Shown piece by piece: positions 29,875 to 51,465 of a stretch of 53,651 nucleotides of DNA. Numbering within the stretch: the stretch's first letter is position 1; every line of letters starts with the position of its first letter. The notes under the pieces are model-generated. The model did not search any database and was not told where the DNA came from. It saw nothing but the letters and a program-made list of their open reading frames with translations. The translations under genes were made by a program, and so were the position numbers. Where the stretch lies: positions 1 to 53,651 of the IMG/VR virus record IMGVR_UViG_3300050343_000116; one strand, written 5' to 3'. Source of the DNA: a virus.

Positions 29875-32800
29875 ATGCCAAGTTTACAAGAGGCACTAGG
29901 CTATTCTCCAATTTCATCTCGCCGGAAAAGACAATCAGACAAGCGGGATGATTTAAACCCGCTTCAGAACTTCACCGCTGGAGTCTCCGCTGGTATTGAT
30001 CAAACACTGGGGCTGGCTGGTGGCCTTAAAGCTTGGTATGGAGAGACCATTGGTGACGACGATATGGTCACTGAAGGTCTTGCCTACTATCAAGAAAAAA
30101 TGCAGGAGGCATCAGAGAGTCGTGGCGACGTAATGTCCTACGAGGACATTGAAGGCATTGGTGACTTCGCTGACTATGCCGCTTATATGGTTGGAAACCT
30201 TCTTCCAACTATAGGATCTGTTGTCGGAACAGGTGGCCTTGCTGGAGCCGCTGGCCAGATTGGTGGGCGCTCTGCGGTAAATTATCAGGTTAAAAAGAAA
30301 GCAAAAGAAGCTGTAGATAAGAGAGTCAAGAACACCGCTCAAAAGCTCGATAAAGATGCAATGGTTAAAAACTACGCGTCCAATCTAAAAGGTAGGTCGG
30401 CAGTCAAAGGACTGTCAGACAAAGCCGCCTCTCGTGCTGGCTCTCTTGGTCAGACTATTGGCGGCGTTGGTGGAAGTATTGGTCTGTCGACAGGAGATAC
30501 CTTTGCCGCCATCTATCAAGAGACCGGAGAGCTGCAAGCTGGAACGGCTTTAGGTGCTGGAATTATTTCTGGTAGCTTGGATGCCTTAACAGGAATGAGA
30601 GCCCTGAAGCGTGTTCTTCCGGCTGACAAGTTTAAAAAAGCTCGAGATGAGGTAGGCGAAAAGGTTATTAAGCAGCGCAAGATTGGCCAAAGAATGCTGG
30701 AGGAGGGATTAAAAAGCTCCGGCATCGAAGGTGTTACTGAGGCGATGCAGGAATTTGTTCAGGAAACAGCAGTTAAGTTAGTGGACAATGATTACTCTTC
30801 GCTGTCTGACGCAATGTACGAGGCCGTGGCACAAGAAGGCGCCAAGTCACTATATATAAATTCAGCATTGGCTGGAGCGTTAGGCGGCTTTGTTATTGGT
30901 GGCGCCAGTGGCATTAAGTCAGACCCGGCCCCGACAAAAGTGCAAGAACCTCCATCAGAAGATGGCCCGGAAATAGCTCCGGTATCTGACGAGCCAAGCG
31001 GCCCGATCATTCCGCAAGATCTACAGATCGAGCGCAATCTAAGAGCGCGAGAAGAAGCTCGCAGAATTATGATGGAAGCTCAGCAAGAGTTGGATCTTGG
31101 CGAGCCCGTGGTTGCTAACGAACCACGAGAGACGGTCACGGACTTGATCGGACAAGAAGTAAGTTATGGCGATGCAACTGGAATACTGACTGAAAGAGAT
31201 GAGGGCGTTTTTGTCGTTACTCCAGACGAAGATGTCTTTGTAGAGTCAGGACAAAACAGAGGCCTAGCCGCTGATAGCCTAGGAATAACAAGGTCTAACG
31301 CGCCACAAGATCTTGAGTTTGAGAACGAGGTGGAGTTTGACACTGCCACCTCTGAATTTTTTGTGCGCGGGAAAAAATATCAATACACCAAATCCAACAC
31401 CAACGATCAAGGTGAGGTTATCTCTGTTACTGCTATAGGGGATAACGGTCAAGAGGTTACCTTCCGTAACAGGGAGATCATAGACAGGATCGTTAGGGGT
31501 GTAGAGCAAGGCGAAAGACGGTTCGATTCTGAGCAGATGGTTCTTATGGACGAGCTGCCTATGTCTGTTCAGCGTCAGATAATGACCGATCAGATGGAGG
31601 CTGGTGAAACATCCATGCCGGATCAGCTGACGGAAGCTCAGGCTATGGATATAGCTCAGAGGCTTCCTGATCAGGATCAAGACCAGCTGACCATGGAGAT
31701 CGGTGAAGCAGTCAGAAGATCAGCTACATTCTTCTCAGCGAATGCTGAGTCTGCTCCCGCGGTCCAAGGTATGCAGAGCCGGGTCGACGAGACTTGGAGT
31801 TCAATGGATCGCACTAATGACAACGTCGATTCAAGCGTGGCTATGGAGCGTCATAACCGTTTGGTAGGTTTAAACATACCTATCAAGGGGACCAACGACA
31901 CATACGTTGTTGAGGAAATGAACCCGGAAGTACTTAGTGGAGCTGAGTCAGGCCTCTCATACAGTAGGAATCAGGGCGGCGTTCAGTACGAAGCCCAGCC
32001 TTTAAGCTCGCGAGAAGAGTTAGAGCCATTTAAGTTAGCTCTTATGGACATTGCTAGCTCAGGTTTCCCTCAAAGCATCATTGATTCGATCGCGGGATTT
32101 GGCATTCATAACGATAGCCGGGGGGAAATGCTTGAGGGTGTAGGGGGTTTTCATGACTTTGTACAGCAGTACATTAGCGTTGGGGAAAACACCGCAAAGA
32201 ATCCAAAACTACTCCGCAACACGCTTGCTCATGAGCTTAGTCATCGTCTTGACCGGGCAGAGGGCGTTACTGAAAGAGAAGAGTTTCGCGCCGTTGTTTC
32301 GGAAGGAACAGAAGGCACTACATCAATTGGAAGCATTAAAGCTCCTATCGAAATCGATATGGGCGATGTCTTGTTTGAGATATACGAAGCGTACAGAACT
32401 GACACACCCATAGGTAACTACTTCAATTACCCTTTCGCTTCTCTCTGGTCGGAGTTTGACAAGATTAGTAAGGCGTTTGATGCCGGCGAAATATCAAAGC
32501 CAAAGCGTGACAAGCAACACAGAGCAGTTTTGAAAGAGCTTAAGAGTGAGGCTTTTGCTCAAAGCTCTGCTCTCTACTTTGCTGAGCCTGAAATGCTGGC
32601 CAAACACGCTCCTCAGATGTATCAATTTATGCGAGACTTAACGTCTCCTGCACAGGACGTAGAGAATGAAAGTTCAATTAGAGAAGAAGGCGATCAGCCC
32701 CAATCTGGACAAGTATCTGGAGAAATTCAGCCACCTGCCCCCGTCGCACCTGTTCAGGTCGAAGACGGTTCAGGAGCTGGACGAGATGGCGGAGTTAGCA

Positions 32801-35800
32801 GTGTTCAAGAACAAGCCGATCAAAGAATGGGAGGCGTGGAAGGACAAGACACTGATCAACTTCCTCTAAACCTCAAAGAAGTATCGACCCTATTCCCGAC
32901 CGCTGTCAGTCGAGAGGTAGACCCAGTTGAAAATGTCATCGTTAGCAACTACGAGGGCTACCAAAACAACAGCAAGTTCGAGCAGAACTCTGAGCTGATA
33001 GCGGGCTATAACAACCTGACTAGAAACGAGCGTCGTCGCGCACCTAAAGCGAGGACAGAGTCTCTTATCGGCCATGTCGTTGATAACCTGCTTCACATTT
33101 ACGATCAGGTTCCTCAAGAAATCAGAGACGTTTCAAAGCTTTGGTATGTTGGGGCAAACAAAATAGCCAATCAATTTTCCAACGAGTACGGGATATCCCT
33201 ATCTCAAGCTTCCGGCGTCATAGCCAACCTGTCTCCACAAAAAGACTGGTACATGAATGCAAGTCTGGCCGAACGTGCCATTGACGTTTACACAAACCAT
33301 CGCACAGATCCTTGGACCGACGCGATGCAGGCTAAAGCAGAAAAGCTATTCATGGAAAACAAAGACCTGAGCAAAAGTGCGGTCGAGAAAAACAAGGTGA
33401 TGCTTGAGAACGTAAAGAACAAGAGCCTTCAGCAGTTAATAGATGAAGGAGCCTCTAATCCTGAGCTTGGCATGTGGACTCGAACTTGGGATCAAACCTT
33501 CAACAACAGTAAGTATCGACTGGTTTCTCCTGATGGAACTTTGCTTGGTTTTGTTAAGACCAAAAAAGGTGAAGATGCCTCAATGGCTTGGGGCAGTAAC
33601 ATAGAAATTGGCAAGGCGTTGTCAGTCTTAGTTGATGGTAGCGATGCCAATATTTCTAAATCACTTGGTCAAGCAAACAAGGTACGAAACTTCTACAACA
33701 ATATCTTTGGTCCGATGAGTGACAAGGGCTTTGTAACCATCGACACTCATGCGGTAGCGGCAGGCTTAATGAAGCCTCTTTCAGGAACATCGAAAGAGGT
33801 CAATCACAACTTTGGTACTGGTAAGGGCGTAGGAAACTCCAGCGTTACCGGATATCGTGGAACGTATGCGGTGTTTGAAGAGGCGTATCGTCGTGCCGGA
33901 AGAGAACGCGGTATTCTTCCTCGTGAGATGCAGTCCATAACATGGGAAGCAGTTCGCGGTCTGTTTACAGACACCTACAAAAACAATGCTCAGAACACGC
34001 TTTTCGCAGAAGGCGTGTGGAACCAATACAGTAGTGGTAAACTCACATTAGACGAGGCTAGACAAAAGGTAAGTAATCATGCAGGAGGATTCAACAGACC
34101 CGACTGGTCTGAATCAGGACGCTCTAAAGATGTTCAGCCGGCTGGGACTTCAACCTTCGAGAGAGGCGTATCTGGAACTGATATATCCAGAAAGGAACTT
34201 GAAGACGGACCCACTGACGGGGGAAGAGGAGTCGATGCTCCCACCGATGTTCAGCGAAAACGAGTAGACTCTCGCTTTGAACCGCCACCCCCATCAGATA
34301 ATCAAGATCTAAACAGAGCTATAAGAGAAGAGGACAAGACCCTTCTCGATTCTGTTAAGACTCAGCTCCGTCGTTATTTGCTTCCGCAGGGTCTGCTCCC
34401 TGATTCCGTGTTCAAGCTAAAGATCGAGCGAGACTCAGAGCTGGGCGCCGTTGAAATTGACATCGGTCAGCTTGTTACAGCCTATGATCGAGCGGTTGAG
34501 AAGCATCACACACAGCTTACTGACGAGCAGAAAAAGCTACATCACGAAGCGCTTGGTGAGAAGTTTAGTGAGATTGAATCTTTAGGTCTTGAACCCGAGA
34601 TAAAAGATGCCATCGTCACGATGCGTAGATATATCGATAAGATGTCGGCAGACTACGCAATCGTTGTGGCTAAAGATGCTCAGCGCATTGCTCTTGACGG
34701 AGACCCCGACAAAGCAGAAGCCAAAATAGATCTAATAAATACGCTCGTGGAGAACATAGGAAGCTATGTCCATAGATCATATCGTGCGTTTGATGACCCT
34801 AACTGGCCAAAGAATGTCCCGGATGCCGTCTTGGATCGGGCTAGAAGTTACCTTGAGGAATCAGGGGCGACAAACGTAGAGAACGTAATCAATACCATTC
34901 TTAAGGACGGTACTGCATACGACTCTATGGAGGCTATGATTCGAGAGTCTAATCTAGGCGCAAAAGATCTGTCGATCTTAAAGGCAAGAAAAGACATTGC
35001 TCCACAAATCAGAGAACTATTAGGCGAGTATCAAGAGCCCCGGATTAACTTTGGTAAAACCGTTACCAAGATGTCTCGGCTTCTGTTTAACGACAGATTC
35101 CTGACCAAGGTTATGCAGGACGGTATGGGCGTCTACCTTTTTGAGGCTGATGATGCCCCGCCACAGGCATTCACTACTCTGGCAGCAGAGAGTTCTGACG
35201 CCATGGCTCCGCTAAACGGCCTGAAGACTACGCCTGAGATATCTCAAGCATTCCAAGATGCGCTTGGAAAAGAGCAGATGGCCGACTGGTACCGCATGAT
35301 TGTTCAGGCAAACGGCTTGGTAAAGTACGGCAAGACTGTCTTGTCTCCAACTACCGTTGCAAGAAACTACATGTCCGCATACTTCTTCACGCTGGCTAAC
35401 GGTCACTTCAACATCAGCAAAGCATCAGAGGCTTGGGCTACCAAGCAGGCTTTCTTTACTCGTGAAGGCGATCGAGTCGCTTACATGAGAAGGCTTAAAG
35501 AGCTTGGTGTTGTTTATGACTCTCCGTACACCGGAGAGATGATGAAATTACTTGAGGAATCGCGTCTGGAGTTTACTTACCAGAACCGGTTCGAAGGTAA
35601 TAACATTGCAGACAACACGAAGAAGCTTGCTGATCGGGCGACTAAGTTTTATCAGTACGGCGATGACTTCTGGAAGATCATTGGTTTTGAGAATGAGATC
35701 GACATCCTCATGGAAGCCAAGTCCTTAACTCGAGAAGAGGCTGAGCCACTAGCAGCCGAAAGGATCAGAAACACTTACCCAACCTATTCGATGGTAGGCA

Positions 35801-36921
35801 AAGGCGGACAGTGGCTAAGACGATTCCCTCTTGCTGGTACGTTTGTTTCTTTCCCGGCAGAAATCATTAGAACGTCATTCAACATGCTTCGATACCTTAA
35901 GCAGGATATGAATGACCCAGACATGTCGAGTGTTGTGCCAAAGAGAGTAGCCGGGTTGGCAATGGCCTCTGGTGGAGCGTTCGGATTGTCTGAGTTCTTA
36001 AAGTCATCTCTTGATATCGATGATGACGAAGAGGAAGCAATCAAGCTGTTAGCCCCACCTTGGTCTAAAAACTCAGACCTTGCATACGTTTCACGTAAAG
36101 ACGGGAACATCCAGTACATAGATCTTTCATCTCTTGATCCGTATTCATACTGGAAGCGTCCGATCAACGCCTTACTTCGTGACCAGCCCATGGATGATGC
36201 AATTGTTCAGGCTGCTGCTGAGCTACTGACGCCATTCTTTGGTAAGGATATTGGTGCTGGAGCGGTTGAAGAAGTCTGGTTCAATAAGAAAGAAACCGGC
36301 TCTCAAGTTTATAACCCGACAGAGCCTGCGGTTGACCAGCTTGCAGATATTACAGGTCACTTGTTCAAGCAACTCTCACCGGGCCTAGTTAACAACGCAA
36401 ATAGAATGATGAAAGCTATCGACGATGATGTCAGTGCTACAGGCAGACGTTATAAAGTAGGAGATGAGATTGCAGCTTTGGCTGGATTCCGAGTAAGCAC
36501 CTTAGACCCGAAGGTCTCTTTGTATTACAAGTCCTTTGAGTTTAACGAGAGCAAGCGCAACGCGACCAAGACTCTGACAGACGCATTCCGCAGTGTGAAT
36601 GACGTTTCTAATTCTGATCTTGAGGGTGCCTTCCGAAGCTCTTCTCGGGCAAGACGTAGAGCCTTTGATGACATGATCAAAATGGTTGGTGCTGCCAGAA
36701 GCTCAGGGCTCAATGAGGCAATGATACTTCGAGTTCTTAAGAATGGCGGTGTCAGCACTAAGGACGCAAAAGCTATTGCGAAGGGTGACTTTTCTTCCTA
36801 TCAGATCTCAGACAGCTCTCTAAAGCGTTACATAAGACGCGCCGAGTTCTTAACTGGTGAGGCCAAAGGGTCAGAGTACGAGCGCAGATTTAGGTTCCTA
36901 CAGTCGCTGGAGGAAGAGTAA
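29875..36921 (+). CDS. Giant polyvalent internal virion protein with zincin motif
   Basis: 2,348 residues, uninterrupted. Near residues 100-135 and 325-345 there are Gly/Ala-rich hydrophobic segments (VGNLLPTIGSVVGTGGLAGA; INSALAGALGGFVIGG). At about residue 786 the sequence LAHELSHRLD holds a metallopeptidase HExxH motif. Residues ~1030-1390 form a block with ASGVIANLSPQKDWYMNAS and FVTIDTHAVAAGL, like domains I recall from large phage polyvalent proteins (DUF7178-like). Residues ~1700-2240 carry the helical, membrane-proximal C-terminal section (VARNYMSAYFFTLANGHFN, RRFPLAGTFVSFPAEIIRT). Such proteins are packaged, ejected and act in the host envelope or cytoplasm. The metallopeptidase function is inferred from the motif alone. 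Confidence 0.75.
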   Translation: MPSLQEALGYSPISSRRKRQSDKRDDLNPLQNFTAGVSAGIDQTLGLAGGLKAWYGETIGDDDMVTEGLAYYQEKMQEASESRGDVMSYEDIEGIGDFADYAAYMVGNLLPTIGSVVGTGGLAGAAGQIGGRSAVNYQVKKKAKEAVDKRVKNTAQKLDKDAMVKNYASNLKGRSAVKGLSDKAASRAGSLGQTIGGVGGSIGLSTGDTFAAIYQETGELQAGTALGAGIISGSLDALTGMRALKRVLPADKFKKARDEVGEKVIKQRKIGQRMLEEGLKSSGIEGVTEAMQEFVQETAVKLVDNDYSSLSDAMYEAVAQEGAKSLYINSALAGALGGFVIGGASGIKSDPAPTKVQEPPSEDGPEIAPVSDEPSGPIIPQDLQIERNLRAREEARRIMMEAQQELDLGEPVVANEPRETVTDLIGQEVSYGDATGILTERDEGVFVVTPDEDVFVESGQNRGLAADSLGITRSNAPQDLEFENEVEFDTATSEFFVRGKKYQYTKSNTNDQGEVISVTAIGDNGQEVTFRNREIIDRIVRGVEQGERRFDSEQMVLMDELPMSVQRQIMTDQMEAGETSMPDQLTEAQAMDIAQRLPDQDQDQLTMEIGEAVRRSATFFSANAESAPAVQGMQSRVDETWSSMDRTNDNVDSSVAMERHNRLVGLNIPIKGTNDTYVVEEMNPEVLSGAESGLSYSRNQGGVQYEAQPLSSREELEPFKLALMDIASSGFPQSIIDSIAGFGIHNDSRGEMLEGVGGFHDFVQQYISVGENTAKNPKLLRNTLAHELSHRLDRAEGVTEREEFRAVVSEGTEGTTSIGSIKAPIEIDMGDVLFEIYEAYRTDTPIGNYFNYPFASLWSEFDKISKAFDAGEISKPKRDKQHRAVLKELKSEAFAQSSALYFAEPEMLAKHAPQMYQFMRDLTSPAQDVENESSIREEGDQPQSGQVSGEIQPPAPVAPVQVEDGSGAGRDGGVSSVQEQADQRMGGVEGQDTDQLPLNLKEVSTLFPTAVSREVDPVENVIVSNYEGYQNNSKFEQNSELIAGYNNLTRNERRRAPKARTESLIGHVVDNLLHIYDQVPQEIRDVSKLWYVGANKIANQFSNEYGISLSQASGVIANLSPQKDWYMNASLAERAIDVYTNHRTDPWTDAMQAKAEKLFMENKDLSKSAVEKNKVMLENVKNKSLQQLIDEGASNPELGMWTRTWDQTFNNSKYRLVSPDGTLLGFVKTKKGEDASMAWGSNIEIGKALSVLVDGSDANISKSLGQANKVRNFYNNIFGPMSDKGFVTIDTHAVAAGLMKPLSGTSKEVNHNFGTGKGVGNSSVTGYRGTYAVFEEAYRRAGRERGILPREMQSITWEAVRGLFTDTYKNNAQNTLFAEGVWNQYSSGKLTLDEARQKVSNHAGGFNRPDWSESGRSKDVQPAGTSTFERGVSGTDISRKELEDGPTDGGRGVDAPTDVQRKRVDSRFEPPPPSDNQDLNRAIREEDKTLLDSVKTQLRRYLLPQGLLPDSVFKLKIERDSELGAVEIDIGQLVTAYDRAVEKHHTQLTDEQKKLHHEALGEKFSEIESLGLEPEIKDAIVTMRRYIDKMSADYAIVVAKDAQRIALDGDPDKAEAKIDLINTLVENIGSYVHRSYRAFDDPNWPKNVPDAVLDRARSYLEESGATNVENVINTILKDGTAYDSMEAMIRESNLGAKDLSILKARKDIAPQIRELLGEYQEPRINFGKTVTKMSRLLFNDRFLTKVMQDGMGVYLFEADDAPPQAFTTLAAESSDAMAPLNGLKTTPEISQAFQDALGKEQMADWYRMIVQANGLVKYGKTVLSPTTVARNYMSAYFFTLANGHFNISKASEAWATKQAFFTREGDRVAYMRRLKELGVVYDSPYTGEMMKLLEESRLEFTYQNRFEGNNIADNTKKLADRATKFYQYGDDFWKIIGFENEIDILMEAKSLTREEAEPLAAERIRNTYPTYSMVGKGGQWLRRFPLAGTFVSFPAEIIRTSFNMLRYLKQDMNDPDMSSVVPKRVAGLAMASGGAFGLSEFLKSSLDIDDDEEEAIKLLAPPWSKNSDLAYVSRKDGNIQYIDLSSLDPYSYWKRPINALLRDQPMDDAIVQAAAELLTPFFGKDIGAGAVEEVWFNKKETGSQVYNPTEPAVDQLADITGHLFKQLSPGLVNNANRMMKAIDDDVSATGRRYKVGDEIAALAGFRVSTLDPKVSLYYKSFEFNESKRNATKTLTDAFRSVNDVSNSDLEGAFRSSSRARRRAFDDMIKMVGAARSSGLNEAMILRVLKNGGVSTKDAKAIAKGDFSSYQISDSSLKRYIRRAEFLTGEAKGSEYERRFRFLQSLEEE

Positions 36922-37157: not shown

Positions 37158-38045
37158 TCAGTCCGCTCTCAACTTGCCCTCAATTCGACTTGCAGCGTCC
37201 AACTTATGAAAGTTGTTCATGTGAGTATAGCGCTGTAACGAATTAAGCGAACGCCATCCACCAATCTCCATCAGCTCACGAGTGTCAGTCTGAGCTTGGA
37301 AGTGCCATGTCGCAAACGTGTGTCGCATTGTATGAAAGCTTGTGCCCTTAGGTAGTCCGGCTAAGTCCACAGCCTTCCGCCAAGTCTTATTACAGACCGC
37401 GCTACGACTGAACGGCTTGCCGTTATTCTGAACAAAGACGCCATCAATCTTGCCTCGCAAAAATGGCCTGCGCTTTACCAATTCCTCTTGAGCACGCTCA
37501 CGTCTTTTTAAGATGTCGCGTGCATCACCATTCAGAGGAATGAGTGCCGGCTTACCATTCTTTGTTTCGGTCGACTCAATCGACATGTACCTACCGTCCT
37601 TGCTTATCTGAGACCAGCGTAGTGTCCGTACGTTGTTGTTGCGTTGTCCGCAACTCAAAGCAAACTCCACCATGTCTGCTCTCAGCGGGTCTAGCCATCT
37701 CAGTAAAGATCTAACTTGACCCGGGTCTAAGTGCAACTCTCTCATCGCTTCCGGCAATGTCTCGATTTTTGGCACACCCTCAATGACTTCAAGCTTGTCC
37801 CGTGCGTAGCACAGTGTCAGCCGTAAGTACTTGAGGTACGTGTTCACAGTCGAGTTACTAAGGCCGTGCTCGTAAAGCAGCTCCTCTTGCAGATCGTTAA
37901 TGTCTTTAGCCCGGATAGTAGAAATGTTTCTATTACCCCAGCGCTTGACCATCTGCTTGATCGCTAGTTTTGCCGCACGACTCTTATCATTACCTCTGCG
38001 TGTTTTTATTTTTAAATACCGCTCTGCTACATCTTTGAACTTCAT
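37158..38045 (-). CDS. int: Tyrosine-recombinase integrase
   Basis: 295 residues from the ATG at 38045, chosen because CACGGAG lies 6 nt upstream; a longer frame adds ten residues but has no ribosome site. N-terminal SAM-like core-binding domain (FKDVAERYLKIKTRRG, NDLQEELLYEHGLSNSTVNT). The catalytic domain has Arg in GQRNNNVRTLRW, the HTMRHTFATW box (HxxR), GGW, and the nucleophile Tyr in LQRYTHM. It catalyses site-specific integration and excision at the adjacent tRNA-Gly attP. It is the last gene of the leftward recombination operon, separated from it by a terminator. Confidence 0.95.
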   Translation of the reverse strand: MKFKDVAERYLKIKTRRGNDKSRAAKLAIKQMVKRWGNRNISTIRAKDINDLQEELLYEHGLSNSTVNTYLKYLRLTLCYARDKLEVIEGVPKIETLPEAMRELHLDPGQVRSLLRWLDPLRADMVEFALSCGQRNNNVRTLRWSQISKDGRYMSIESTETKNGKPALIPLNGDARDILKRRERAQEELVKRRPFLRGKIDGVFVQNNGKPFSRSAVCNKTWRKAVDLAGLPKGTSFHTMRHTFATWHFQAQTDTRELMEIGGWRSLNSLQRYTHMNNFHKLDAASRIEGKLRAD

Positions 38046-38092
38046 ATGACTCTCCGTGTGTATGAAGCCCCGCACCGCAGCTATACCTTATC

Positions 38093-38154: not shown

Positions 38155-38214
38155 TTAGTCACTGGTGTGCCAAGCCAGTCAGGAACTCGGGTACCTATCA
38201 GACCCGAGGACTAA
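38155..38214 (-). ncRNA. Candidate three-way-junction RNA element
   Basis: On the leftward strand, TTAGTC (38214-38209) pairs with GACTAA (38160-38155). These enclose two perfect hairpins: CTCGGGT/ACCCGAG with a 9-nt loop and ACTGG/CCAGT with a 9-nt loop, joined by TTCCTG. All three helices are exact. The closing helix includes the stop codon TAG of the gene at 38211-38450. A strong terminator follows about 40 nt downstream. No known family is recognised; it may be a 3' mRNA element, a small RNA or a regulatory switch ahead of int. Confidence 0.45.
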
Positions 38215-38450
38215 TTAACAACCTCGCCTTCTGCCACTTCCTCTGCCTCTTGGGGGAGGGGTTCCGGCAGAAGCTTTTTAGCATCAGCCAAGGTTGCATC
38301 TGCGCCAGCTCGAGCTGCCTCGAGTAGGGGTGCAAGGATTTGTATTGCTTGGTTAGCTTGTTGAACGAGTGCCAGCATCTGGCGTGGTCGCTCTCCAATC
38401 TCTTGAAAGTTGTACGACTTACCGTCGATACTAATTGTTTGATCACTCAT
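38211..38450 (-). CDS. Small DUF6447-like protein
   Basis: 79 residues. N-terminal TISIDGKSYNFQEIGE and following helix PRQMLALVQQANQAIQIL, with an acidic C-terminus. The opening TISIDGK-Y and the helical continuation recall DUF6447 proteins. Translationally coupled to the gene above it (ATGA overlap). Function unknown. Confidence 0.6.
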   Translation of the reverse strand: MSDQTISIDGKSYNFQEIGERPRQMLALVQQANQAIQILAPLLEAARAGADATLADAKKLLPEPLPQEAEEVAEGEVVN

Positions 38451-38845
38451 CTTTTATGCTTACTCCTAGCGTTGTTTCGTAAAAGTTCATATGACCTTGG
38501 CGCTTGCACCAAGATCCTTGCTTGTGGGACAACCCTATTCTTGCTGAGGTCACCTCGCCCACATATCTCACAGAAGTCATCAGGCGTGTACCAGTACTCC
38601 TGAATTCCTACGAGGGCTATTGAGACTGTGGGGCTGACCTCTAGGATCTCACCACCAACAGTCATAAGTTGTTCAACACAGCCGTCTTTGGAATACACAT
38701 TTAAGAGACAATCTTGCTTGCCCTTATGGTCCCTGACCCGTCGAACCCATATTTTGTGCTCGAACGTAGTCTCTGGACTTTGGGGGTCCATGTTCTTTCC
38801 CCCGTATAAGACACTATCGACAGCTCGTGTTAGCCGTAAACCCAT
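38447..38845 (-). CDS. CsrA-like RNA-binding protein with a large insertion
   Basis: 132 residues. The N-terminus MGLRLTRAVDSVLYGG aligns with the first strand of CsrA/RsmA (LxLTRxxGxxxxIG). The C-terminal ARILVQAPRSYELLRNNA aligns with the last CsrA strands and the RNA-contacting segment (VRIGVxAPxxxxVxRxE). Between them lie about 80 residues absent from CsrA, including a CEICG zinc-knuckle-like motif near residue 95. CsrA binds GGA in hairpin loops of mRNA leaders. If this protein keeps that ability it could control phage or host mRNAs. Family placement comes from motif comparison by eye. Confidence 0.5.
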   Translation of the reverse strand: MGLRLTRAVDSVLYGGKNMDPQSPETTFEHKIWVRRVRDHKGKQDCLLNVYSKDGCVEQLMTVGGEILEVSPTVSIALVGIQEYWYTPDDFCEICGRGDLSKNRVVPQARILVQAPRSYELLRNNARSKHKR

Positions 38846-38855
38846 ATCAATACCT

Positions 38856-39260
38856 TTAAAACGGAATGTCTTCCTCGGGAAAGTCAGCTTGCTGTGGTGC
38901 AGGCTGTGGTGCAGGCTGTGGGGCTGGCTTGTTTGCAGGTTTAGTAGGTAACCAGTACTCGACGTTCAGCTGAGAGACTGCGCCATCGCGCTTCTGTTCA
39001 GCAACATCTAGATTGTATTTAATGGCCTCACCGCCATTTATATCGAGTGCTCCCTGCATCTCATCGATCACGTCCTGATCGATCTTCAGCCAACCGTTGA
39101 AGCTTGGAATCTTCAGCGCTTGCTGCTCTTTACTAAGATCTGTAAACCAGCTGTACTGCTTGAGATGGTTGTACTTCTCAAGTTTTTTCTCTCGATCTAG
39201 CGGGTAAAGGCGCCCCTTACCAGCCTTAATTGCCTCGAAGGCAGTAGGTTTATTTTGCAT
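38856..39260 (-). CDS. ssb: Single-stranded DNA-binding protein
   Basis: 134 residues; start overlaps the exonuclease stop (TAATG) with GGAG upstream. The C-terminus FPEEDIPF is the acidic SSB tip that in bacterial SSB recruits partner proteins, preceded by a Pro/Gln-rich linker made of repeated PAPQ units (residues ~110-126). The N-terminal ~100 residues would be the OB-fold part, but their sequence is divergent. Gene order exonuclease-SSB beside an annealing protein supports a recombination role. Confidence 0.75.
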   Translation of the reverse strand: MQNKPTAFEAIKAGKGRLYPLDREKKLEKYNHLKQYSWFTDLSKEQQALKIPSFNGWLKIDQDVIDEMQGALDINGGEAIKYNLDVAEQKRDGAVSQLNVEYWLPTKPANKPAPQPAPQPAPQQADFPEEDIPF

Positions 39261-40282
39261 TAGTCATCTCCGATTGATTTGATTGATGATTGCAGTGAAT
39301 TACTCTGCCGACGCCATTCGTCGATAGAGCTATCTTTCTCTAGCAGGGCTTGTTCCCCGCCAAGAAATTCAAATGCCCCGCGGAAATCCACCGGAGGAGT
39401 TTTCTTGATGACCTGTATAGACACGAATCCGTTGGTGATTGACCGCTCGTACTTTTTAACTAGCTCTTTCTTGAGTGCGTCACGGCTAGCCTTGAGGTGG
39501 TCTAGGTCTTGAAGTGCTTGATAGTTCATGACCTCAATCTCATTGATCTTGCCTTGAATGTCGGCAAGCTCAGACATCTGGTCATCTTGGATTTCATCGT
39601 AGTCAGGCTTCAGCGGATCAAGGTGCTTTTGAGCCCGTTCAGGATCGGCAGCCTCAGCTTGAATGAAGTCATACCAAGCCTTGAACAAATCAAGTCTAGT
39701 GACGGACCCCTTTTTTGGTGTTGGCAACAGCCTTCCTTCAAGCTCCTCGTCCAACCAATCCCAGTTGCGCTCTACTCTATCGATGTGCCATTGGCCTTCA
39801 GCCTGTGGATCGGTCGCTAAGTAGCACATGAAGTCACACCAATCTAGGTCACAGACCTCCATGACCATGTGGCACTGCCATAAATACATGATTCGCTTTT
39901 CGTCAAAGACAGAGTAAGGCGCCTTGGTCCACTTAGGATAGGGGCACTTGAACTCGGCACAGCCTTCAATACCAATCAGACCATCAGGCGATGCGGCTAG
40001 GAACGAGTGCTTTGAATGTACGACCAAGCCAGTCTCATCAACTTTGTACCGTTGAATTTGCTCAAGCTTGACGCGGGCATAGTCCTCCATCATGGAGCCA
40101 TGCTCTACTGCCGCGTTGGTTTGAAACTCAGACTCGGCACCAAGGATAGCCCTTACCTCTTGGCGGACAACTTCCTCGACCTTCATGTAAGGGTGCTTGT
40201 TCTCATAAGCAGCGCAGATACTTGCTTTGATCAGGCCAGCTCTGGCTTTTAGCCACCCCTCAGAACCTTGGGGGTGCATCAT
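39260..40282 (-). CDS. YqaJ/lambda-Exo-type recombination exonuclease
   Basis: 340 residues from the ATG at 40282, which overlaps the preceding stop and lies 8 nt after AAGGGG; a GTG three codons earlier is less well placed. N-terminal GSEGWLKARAGLIKAS is the typical YqaJ opening. The PD-(D/E)XK core is visible as SPDGLIG, then CAEFKCPYP (E-x-K), followed by QCHMVMEVCDLDWCDFM. The C-terminal ~150 residues are helical with an ATP-independent lambda-Exo-like plan. It would resect duplex ends to give 3' single strands for the annealing protein encoded just upstream. Confidence 0.85.
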   Translation of the reverse strand: MMHPQGSEGWLKARAGLIKASICAAYENKHPYMKVEEVVRQEVRAILGAESEFQTNAAVEHGSMMEDYARVKLEQIQRYKVDETGLVVHSKHSFLAASPDGLIGIEGCAEFKCPYPKWTKAPYSVFDEKRIMYLWQCHMVMEVCDLDWCDFMCYLATDPQAEGQWHIDRVERNWDWLDEELEGRLLPTPKKGSVTRLDLFKAWYDFIQAEAADPERAQKHLDPLKPDYDEIQDDQMSELADIQGKINEIEVMNYQALQDLDHLKASRDALKKELVKKYERSITNGFVSIQVIKKTPPVDFRGAFEFLGGEQALLEKDSSIDEWRRQSNSLQSSIKSIGDD

Positions 40283-40950
40283 GCTGACCACCCCTTCTTG
40301 CTACAGACCTCTTCCCACCGATTGAGACGGTAGTCTTCCAGACCGCGAGACTTCAGAGCCTTAACATATCGATCAAACATTTTTTGACCGGCAGTTTTTG
40401 TTCGCGCCTTTTGGATTTCTTCGAGGCTGGTCATCCAAAGCCTATCAATGCTGTTCCTGACTTTTGAGTCCGCTTCTGTGTCGTCCGTGGGTAAAACATC
40501 CCCAGAGGACTGGTCAGTGACTTCTTCTACAACTTCCGGCTCTTCTGCCGTTGGCTTCTTGAGCCACAGTTGATGGCCAAGGCCGAACTCAGCCATCGCC
40601 TTAACGCGACACCTTTGCTTGGCGGTGTTTATTTGAAAGCTGTTAGGGTTGCGTACAACATCACCGCCGTCTCTCACCATGTAAGAGGTGATCTGGGTGT
40701 GCCCTAAAACCGTCATGCGACACCTAACCTCGCAGGTACCGTCATTGAAGTAATGAACTTCCCGGCTTTCGGGGTCTTCGGTAAATTCCCATGTGTATTC
40801 TGGGAAGTTGTCCATCATGAGTACGTGCGCGTTCATCCAAGACACAGCGGGAAACTTTTCCCCGCTTATCGTTTCGGACTCAGTGCAGTGTGGTTTTATG
40901 TTTACAGCAGAAAGGGTTGCCCATATGTGGGCTTTAGAAGTCTTGTCCAT
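40279..40950 (-). CDS. Single-strand annealing protein (DUF1071/Sak3-like)
   Basis: 223 residues. The motif NSFQINTAKQRCRVKAMAEFGLG near residues 100-125, quoted here in abbreviated form as INTAKQRCRVKAMAEFGLG, corresponds to the signature of DUF1071, now regarded as a Rad52-like single-strand annealing family. Upstream are FPAVSWMNAHVLM and a beta region with VRCRMTVLGHTQITSYM. The C-terminus is acidic then helical. Partner genes for exonuclease and SSB follow at once, so this is a complete annealing-recombination module. A TACACGGAT leader lies before the start. Confidence 0.75.
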   Translation of the reverse strand: MDKTSKAHIWATLSAVNIKPHCTESETISGEKFPAVSWMNAHVLMMDNFPEYTWEFTEDPESREVHYFNDGTCEVRCRMTVLGHTQITSYMVRDGGDVVRNPNSFQINTAKQRCRVKAMAEFGLGHQLWLKKPTAEEPEVVEEVTDQSSGDVLPTDDTEADSKVRNSIDRLWMTSLEEIQKARTKTAGQKMFDRYVKALKSRGLEDYRLNRWEEVCSKKGWSA

Positions 40951-48733: not shown

Positions 48734-48785
48734 AGACGCCTCACGGCGTTTCGGTCGGTATTCCTCCGACAGCTCGTCAGTGCGG
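48730..48785 (-). ncRNA. Type I hammerhead ribozyme A
   Basis: Leftward strand. Stem I CCGCA/TGTGG (one G-U); core CTGACGA; stem II GTCGG/CCGAC capped by the 7-nt loop AGGAATA, with a two-base bulge near its base; GAAA; stem III ACGCC/GGCGT with a GTGA (GNRA) loop; cleavage triplet GTC, predicted cut between 48735 and 48734. Stems II and III are closed and stem I is open, which defines type I. All invariant core residues are present. It lies in the leader of the paralogue 1 gene, ~40 nt before its start. Confidence 0.85.
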
Positions 48786-51106: not shown

Positions 51107-51159
51107 TGACGCCCCGGAGGACGTTTCGGCTCGTGTCCAGCGAGCCATCATCAGACGGG
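51103..51159 (-). ncRNA. Type I hammerhead ribozyme B
   Basis: Leftward strand. Stem I CCCGT/ACGGG (5 perfect pairs); core CTGATGA; one extra T, then stem II GGCTCG/CGAGCC with the 7-nt loop CTGGACA; GAAA; stem III ACGTCC/GGGCGT with a TCCG loop; cleavage triplet GTC, predicted cut between 51108 and 51107. It begins right after the TAG stop of the gene at 51160-51375 and ends 35 nt before the next start. The extra base between the core and stem II may lower activity. Confidence 0.85.
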
Positions 51160-51412: not shown

Positions 51413-51465
51413 AGACACCCCGAAGGGTGTTTCGGCCGGTTTCCCTCCGGCTCTCGTCAGTGCGG
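51409..51465 (-). ncRNA. Type I hammerhead ribozyme C
   Basis: Leftward strand. Stem I CCGCA/TGCGG (5 perfect pairs); core CTGACGA; stem II GCCGG/CCGGC with the 7-nt loop AGGGAAA and a bulged A near the base; GAAA; stem III ACACCC/GGGTGT with a stable TTCG loop; cleavage triplet GTC, predicted cut between 51414 and 51413. The stop codon TGA of the upstream gene is the TGA of the core CTGACGA, so a terminating ribosome would sit on the ribozyme. Confidence 0.9.

Follow-up and report, generated by a model that had tools for sequence, protein, structure and literature searches.

A divergent CsrA-like protein in the recombination operon of an environmental phage lineage, probably a single-chain pseudo-dimer

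Introduction

How can a protein about twice the length of CsrA, which resembles it only at its two ends, belong to the CsrA superfamily, and what would such a protein do in a phage? The question is raised by a 132-amino acid protein encoded in the window, the whole 53,651-nucleotide stretch of DNA analysed here, which was taken from a virus record. An earlier note read this protein as a CsrA-like RNA-binding protein with an 80-residue insertion and linked it to hammerhead ribozymes on the same DNA.

CsrA is the textbook example of a dimer formed by domain swapping, and it has two RNA sites. Each site is composed of b1 of one chain and b5 of the other, and avidity bridging of two GGA motifs is central to the mechanism. 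Each chain contains five strands; b1 and b5 pair with the other chain and not with their own, giving the sheets b5A-b2B-b3B-b4B-b1A and the reverse (PMC3791407).

The gene and its operon

The CsrA-like open reading frame (ORF) is a real, conserved gene with an ATG start. It is located in a minus-strand operon in the order Sak, RecE-type exonuclease, SSB-tail protein, CsrA-like protein, 79-amino acid protein, integrase.

40279..40950, minus strand: Sak-type single-strand annealing protein, same operon as the CsrA-like gene
39260..40291, minus strand: RecE/YqaJ-type recombination exonuclease, same operon as the CsrA-like gene
38856..39260, minus strand: 134-amino acid protein with the SSB-like acidic tail DFPEEDIPF at its end; upstream neighbour, whose adjacency to the CsrA-like gene is conserved
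38447..38845, minus strand: CsrA-like gene, 132 amino acids; its stop overlaps the next ATG (ATGA)
38211..38450, minus strand: 79-amino acid protein, the downstream partner
37158..38075, minus strand: tyrosine integrase, which closes the conserved neighbourhood

Across 38 loci, the exonuclease adjoins the CsrA-like gene in every one, and Sak and the integrase are present in nearly all loci where the contig is long enough. The CsrA-like gene and the 79-amino acid gene overlap, stop with start, and are likely to be translationally coupled. This partner, with its ATGA overlap, is usual in relatives and absent from a few (e.g., L064 and L166). The 79-amino acid protein is small, conserved, and acidic, and could be a partner or an antagonist of the CsrA-like protein. 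On the opposite strand, beside the operon, lies a single ORF of 2348 amino acids (29875-36921, plus strand).

Homologues and distribution

Direct sequence searches recovered only copies that are 83-100% identical; near-identical copies of the protein (100% and 83% identity) are carried by 8 IMG/VR contigs. Homologues at 37-55% identity came from searching with the SSB-tail neighbour and examining the gene that follows it. Profile searches then widened the set to 55 distinct proteins, or 38 after clustering at 95% identity, and these 38 were aligned. The family thus has at least 38 distinct members (below 95% mutual identity) on IMG/VR contigs, nearly all with the same neighbours.

One homologue sits in a Porticoccaceae metagenome-assembled genome. 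The 368 other genomes of the Porticoccaceae class that were searched yielded no homologue save one degenerate partial match broken by stops, and the plasmids and annotated phages searched yielded no relative. Matches to MT836611.1 (tblastn, inside an unrelated 401-amino acid ORF), Mycobacterium phage HarryOW, and Rhizobium phage RHph_N3_2 (whose protein has no CsrA profile match) were rejected as chance. The family belongs to an environmental phage lineage seen almost only in metagenomes.

Relationship to CsrA

The window protein alone matches no CsrA model and nothing convincing in Pfam or PHROGs, so only its relatives reveal the link. Pfam CsrA is matched individually by 17 of the 38 members (best E 2.1e-5). 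The matches are partial where listed, and the members' listed scores of 15.9-22.1 bits do not reach the curated PF02599 cut-off of 27 bits. NCBIfam CsrA models are matched by 8 and 7 members (best E 0.001), and PHROG 9500, "CsrA-like regulator", is the commonest PHROG match (4 members). The profile-profile score against CsrA is 37.6, and the maximum among 300 column-shuffled alignments is 22.2. Searched against the PDB, the family profile raised RsmF/RsmN as the sole RNA-binding proteins (E about 2). At E<1, the CsrA HMM found among 19,803 ORFs from 246 loci only CsrA genes, family members, and CsrA-like phage proteins, namely those of vsMR, Pondi, BcepMigl, and one faecal contig.

Both end segments named in the earlier note are present: the N-terminal one at residues 3-16 (LRLTRAVDSVLYGG) and the C-terminal one at residues 109-123 (ARILVQAPRSYELLR), with CEICG at residues 92-96. 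In the co-terminal CsrA register, the first 15 residues score a mean of 17.9 against -15.4 +/- 8.1 for shuffles, and none of 2000 shuffles reaches that value. Residues 65-123 line up with CsrA positions 9-44, the CxxC loop falling in a gap of the alignment. Homology above chance is established for CsrA b2-b5 and b1-b2.

The 80-residue insertion needs correcting. The C-terminal CsrA part starts near residue 65, not at 109, so that the extra material comprises about 50 residues after the first strands and about 20 (the CxxC knuckle) between strands 3 and 4. The middle of the protein is probably not an arbitrary insertion and is better read as part of a tandem, pseudo-dimeric CsrA.

The family is very probably homologous to CsrA, as judged from profile matches, shuffle controls, invariant RNA-contact residues, and the fold search described below. 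Within the CsrA superfamily, the 132-amino acid protein stands apart as a divergent form and is not a canonical CsrA.

Predicted structure

The structure prediction and comparison with CsrA proposed in the earlier note came out in favour of a CsrA-like protein. The AlphaFold (AF2) monomer built from the 38-sequence alignment is a confident model (pLDDT 88.4, pTM 0.76) with nine strands, versus ten in the CsrA dimer. From just two distinct sequences, AlphaFold gave a pLDDT of 38.5. The predicted elements are as follows.

38825..38842, minus strand: strand b1, residues 2-7 (GLRLTR), equivalent of CsrA b1; R7, the counterpart of CsrA R6, is invariant in 38 sequences
38660..38812, minus strand: residues 12-62, strands 12-16, 30-40, 43-52, and 55-62; contains the invariant H30
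38588..38644, minus strand: residues 68-86, strands 68-71 and 74-86, equivalents of CsrA b2 and b3
38561..38572, minus strand: CxxC knuckle, C92 and C95, in the loop between CsrA b3 and b4; putative metal site
38459..38536, minus strand: residues 104-129, strands 104-114 and 120-123 and helix 124-129, equivalents of CsrA b4, b5, and C-terminal helix; P116 and R123 are invariant

A fold search of BFVD finds phage CsrA-like models. The best match is a 114-amino acid phage "carbon storage regulator", aligned at full length (TM 0.55/0.63, probability 1.00), and the leading matches include phage proteins of 106-114 amino acids that are about 12-13% identical to the window protein. The best 50 Foldseek matches in the PDB are all meaningless, mostly lipocalins with TM <0.3.

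In the AF2 monomer, b1 (2-7) and b5 (120-123) are assigned as strands within one chain. The CsrA/RsmA chains that form swapped homodimers are short, at 65-75 amino acids; this protein has 132, and its monomer is predicted to be closed.

A single-chain pseudo-dimer

These features suggest that the protein is probably a single-chain CsrA pseudo-dimer. An ancestral csrA would have been duplicated in tandem and then fused, and one polypeptide would build the two-sheet sandwich that otherwise needs two CsrA chains. One RNA site would survive, to which the first strand contributes L3-R7 and the last strand Y119-R123. The other site, made from b5 of copy 1 and b1 of copy 2, would have collapsed into the single connecting strand 55-62. 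Residues 12-62 are accordingly proposed to be the degenerate rest of copy 1, i.e., b2-b3-b4 and the joined b5/b1 strand. The loop between b3 and b4 of copy 2 would have acquired the CxxC knuckle (C92, C95, perhaps with H30). On this proposal, only the chain ends still look like CsrA because the surviving site consists of the two ends and the other site has collapsed.

The duplication is suggested by the predicted model, by weak repeated segments, and by one bridge protein. In family member L147, the CsrA strand-2 sequence is matched twice (HMM 2-17 and 6-26), both as weak segments. In the bridge protein, a 92-amino acid protein of phage vsMR, a match to CsrA HMM positions 1-24 is followed by one to positions 9-47. 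The duplication is put forward as a proposal because the N-terminal half alone is not significant against the CsrA profile, 28 of 300 shuffles scoring as well.

The middle could instead be a true inserted beta domain in a CsrA core. Such a protein would be a swapped homodimer with two RNA sites, and residues 12-62 would be an unrelated insertion between b1/b2 and b2/b3, placed comparably to the helix of RsmN. The CsrA match is indeed strong only for b1-b2 and b2-b5, hhalign reads the vsMR protein as CsrA with an insertion after b2, and the example of RsmN makes clear that a CsrA protein can accommodate extra sequence between b2 and b3 (PMC3791407). However, the confident monomer model is closed and has b1 and b5 as predicted paired strands, the strand-2 sequence is matched twice, and the match to the 106-114-amino acid phage CsrA-like models is full-length. 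The inserted-domain reading is unlikely, and the pseudo-dimer is preferred.

Conserved residues and RNA binding

Twelve columns are invariant in the 38 sequences: M1, L3, R7, G15, G16, H30, R35, C92, C95, P116, Y119, and R123. Among them, R7, P116, and R123 are the equivalents of CsrA R6, P37, and R44; L5, the counterpart of CsrA L4, is L, I, or V throughout. RsmA requires R44 to bind RNA; in RsmN, the GG bases are contacted by the leucines of b1 and by the counterpart of R44 (PMC3791407). The phage protein is rather likely to bind GGA RNA.

The CsrA fold might also have been kept while RNA binding was lost or changed, with the protein acting in a recombination complex, e.g., on single-stranded DNA or the SSB-tail protein. 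The gene always lies among those for the annealing protein, exonuclease, and SSB-tail protein, as such a role would predict. Nevertheless, nucleic-acid binding at the site appears to be kept because R7, P116, and R123, the equivalents of CsrA RNA-contact residues, stay invariant, and a purely recombinational role is rather improbable.

Within the knuckle, C92 and C95 are invariant, as is H30, and the 38 sequences hold no fourth invariant Cys or His. Zinc-ribbon profile matches are weak and occur in single relatives. The knuckle is a putative metal site.

That the whole resemblance is chance, in an unrelated small beta protein, would fit the lack of a profile match for the window sequence alone, but is very unlikely: three independent libraries, the fold search, and the controls with shuffled and background sequences agree on CsrA.

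Hammerhead ribozymes

The window contains three hammerheads, identified by motif search.

48748-48780, minus strand: hammerhead 1
51123-51154, minus strand: hammerhead 2
51429-51460, minus strand: hammerhead 3

Rfam at gathering score reports no hammerhead and misses all three. Pattern matches occur in 16 of 29 relatives' contigs, with up to six each and on one strand per contig, and reversed-pattern controls on the 29 contigs gave few. Two of the 16 matching contigs (G390 and G391) have no plausible stem II. Hammerheads are multicopy across the gene-bearing phage lineage (relatives G384, G387, G385, G400, and G381).

The stem-II loops of the window are AGGAAUA, CUGGACA, and AGGGAAA. All three contain GGA, as the earlier note had observed, and so do all six when the closest relative, G002, is included (three each); one of the loops is markedly different in the two phages. 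Of the three window loops, only one fits ANGGA, the fuller CsrA/RsmN motif. None of the 26 stem-II loops of other phages encoding the family contains GGA. GGA in the Shine-Dalgarno sites had also been offered in support of a link between the protein and the ribozymes; it is expected of any ribosome-binding site and lends none.

The proposed link is thus not supported. The loop GGA is not the reason for the conservation of the protein because other phages keep the protein and its RNA-contact residues without GGA loops. Modulation of hammerhead folding through stem-II GGA, which the six loops of the window and G002 would favour, is extremely unlikely given the 0/26 count elsewhere and the single ANGGA match; an interaction specific to the window clade is conceivable.

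Candidate RNA targets

Near the gene starts of the operon, GGA hairpins occur at about the frequency seen in shuffled sequences, with no general excess. The exception is upstream of the SSB-tail gene, where a GGA hairpin is found in 8 of 27 loci against 2.8 expected from single-base shuffles. In one subclade (L032, L033, L060, L073, L087, and L093), this leader hairpin is ACAC-GGAGA(A/U)-GUGU. Its loop carries the ribosome-binding site for the SSB-tail protein, and the hairpin resembles a CsrA site. It is not claimed as a target: the same sequence encodes the C-terminus of the exonuclease, and it is absent from the window. A GGA terminator loop before the integrase was also set aside, being present in the window clade only.

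The protein would likely act on early mRNAs of the phage as a monovalent translational regulator that reads GGA. Transcripts of its own recombination-integration operon are a plausible target, and autoregulation of the operon is the natural first candidate.

Comparison with known systems

CsrA/RsmA (PF02599) shares with the phage protein the order b1...b2-b3-b4-b5-helix, the L4, R6, P37, and R44 equivalents, and the co-terminal ends. The phage protein differs in being about twice as long, with four extra strands, a CxxC knuckle, and sub-threshold profile matches. It is predicted to be a closed monomer with one RNA site, whereas CsrA is a swapped dimer with two.

Phages are known to carry csrA (PMC7366521); 85 of 50,697 phage records contain it. 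The positions of ordinary phage csrA genes vary; in the Burkholderia phage BcepMigl (L223), the gene lies directly before the major capsid gene.

RsmN/RsmF of Pseudomonas aeruginosa is similar in that an insertion changed the chain path while the RNA-reading strands were kept (PMC3791407). It differs in that an alpha helix is inserted between b2 and b3, whereas the extra region of the phage protein is predicted to be mostly beta strands. RsmN/RsmF also has 71-79 amino acids and is still a homodimer.

The vsMR protein of a Pseudomonas phage (OR687460.1, L225:1354-1632) resembles CsrA in the first and last strands of its single chain, and the middle is degenerate. It differs in its shorter loops and in having no CxxC knuckle. 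This unannotated 92-amino acid protein is likely a minimal single-chain CsrA, and a search of IMG/VR for other proteins like it found none.

The YqeH C-terminal domain is a CsrA-like two-sheet sandwich made from two repeats in one chain (PMC2954204). It differs in its segment-swapped topology relative to CsrA and its GTPase context, and it has no sequence match to the phage protein.

Significance

Taken as a whole, the best explanation, and a reasonably likely one, is a derived CsrA that arose as a fused tandem duplicate, with one RNA site and a CxxC knuckle, and that serves as a GGA-reading regulator. More tentatively, a widespread environmental phage family may possess a fused CsrA dimer whose single GGA site and metal knuckle allow it to block single sites without bridging and to time the expression of recombination and integration genes.

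If true, a natural single-chain, one-site CsrA would be a ready-made test of the purpose of bivalency. It would also be an interlocked dimer turned monomer, the sort of intermediate that has been considered in connection with CsrA and the YqeH domain (PMC2954204). A conserved gene of previously unknown role in an environmental phage lineage also gains a name and a testable function.
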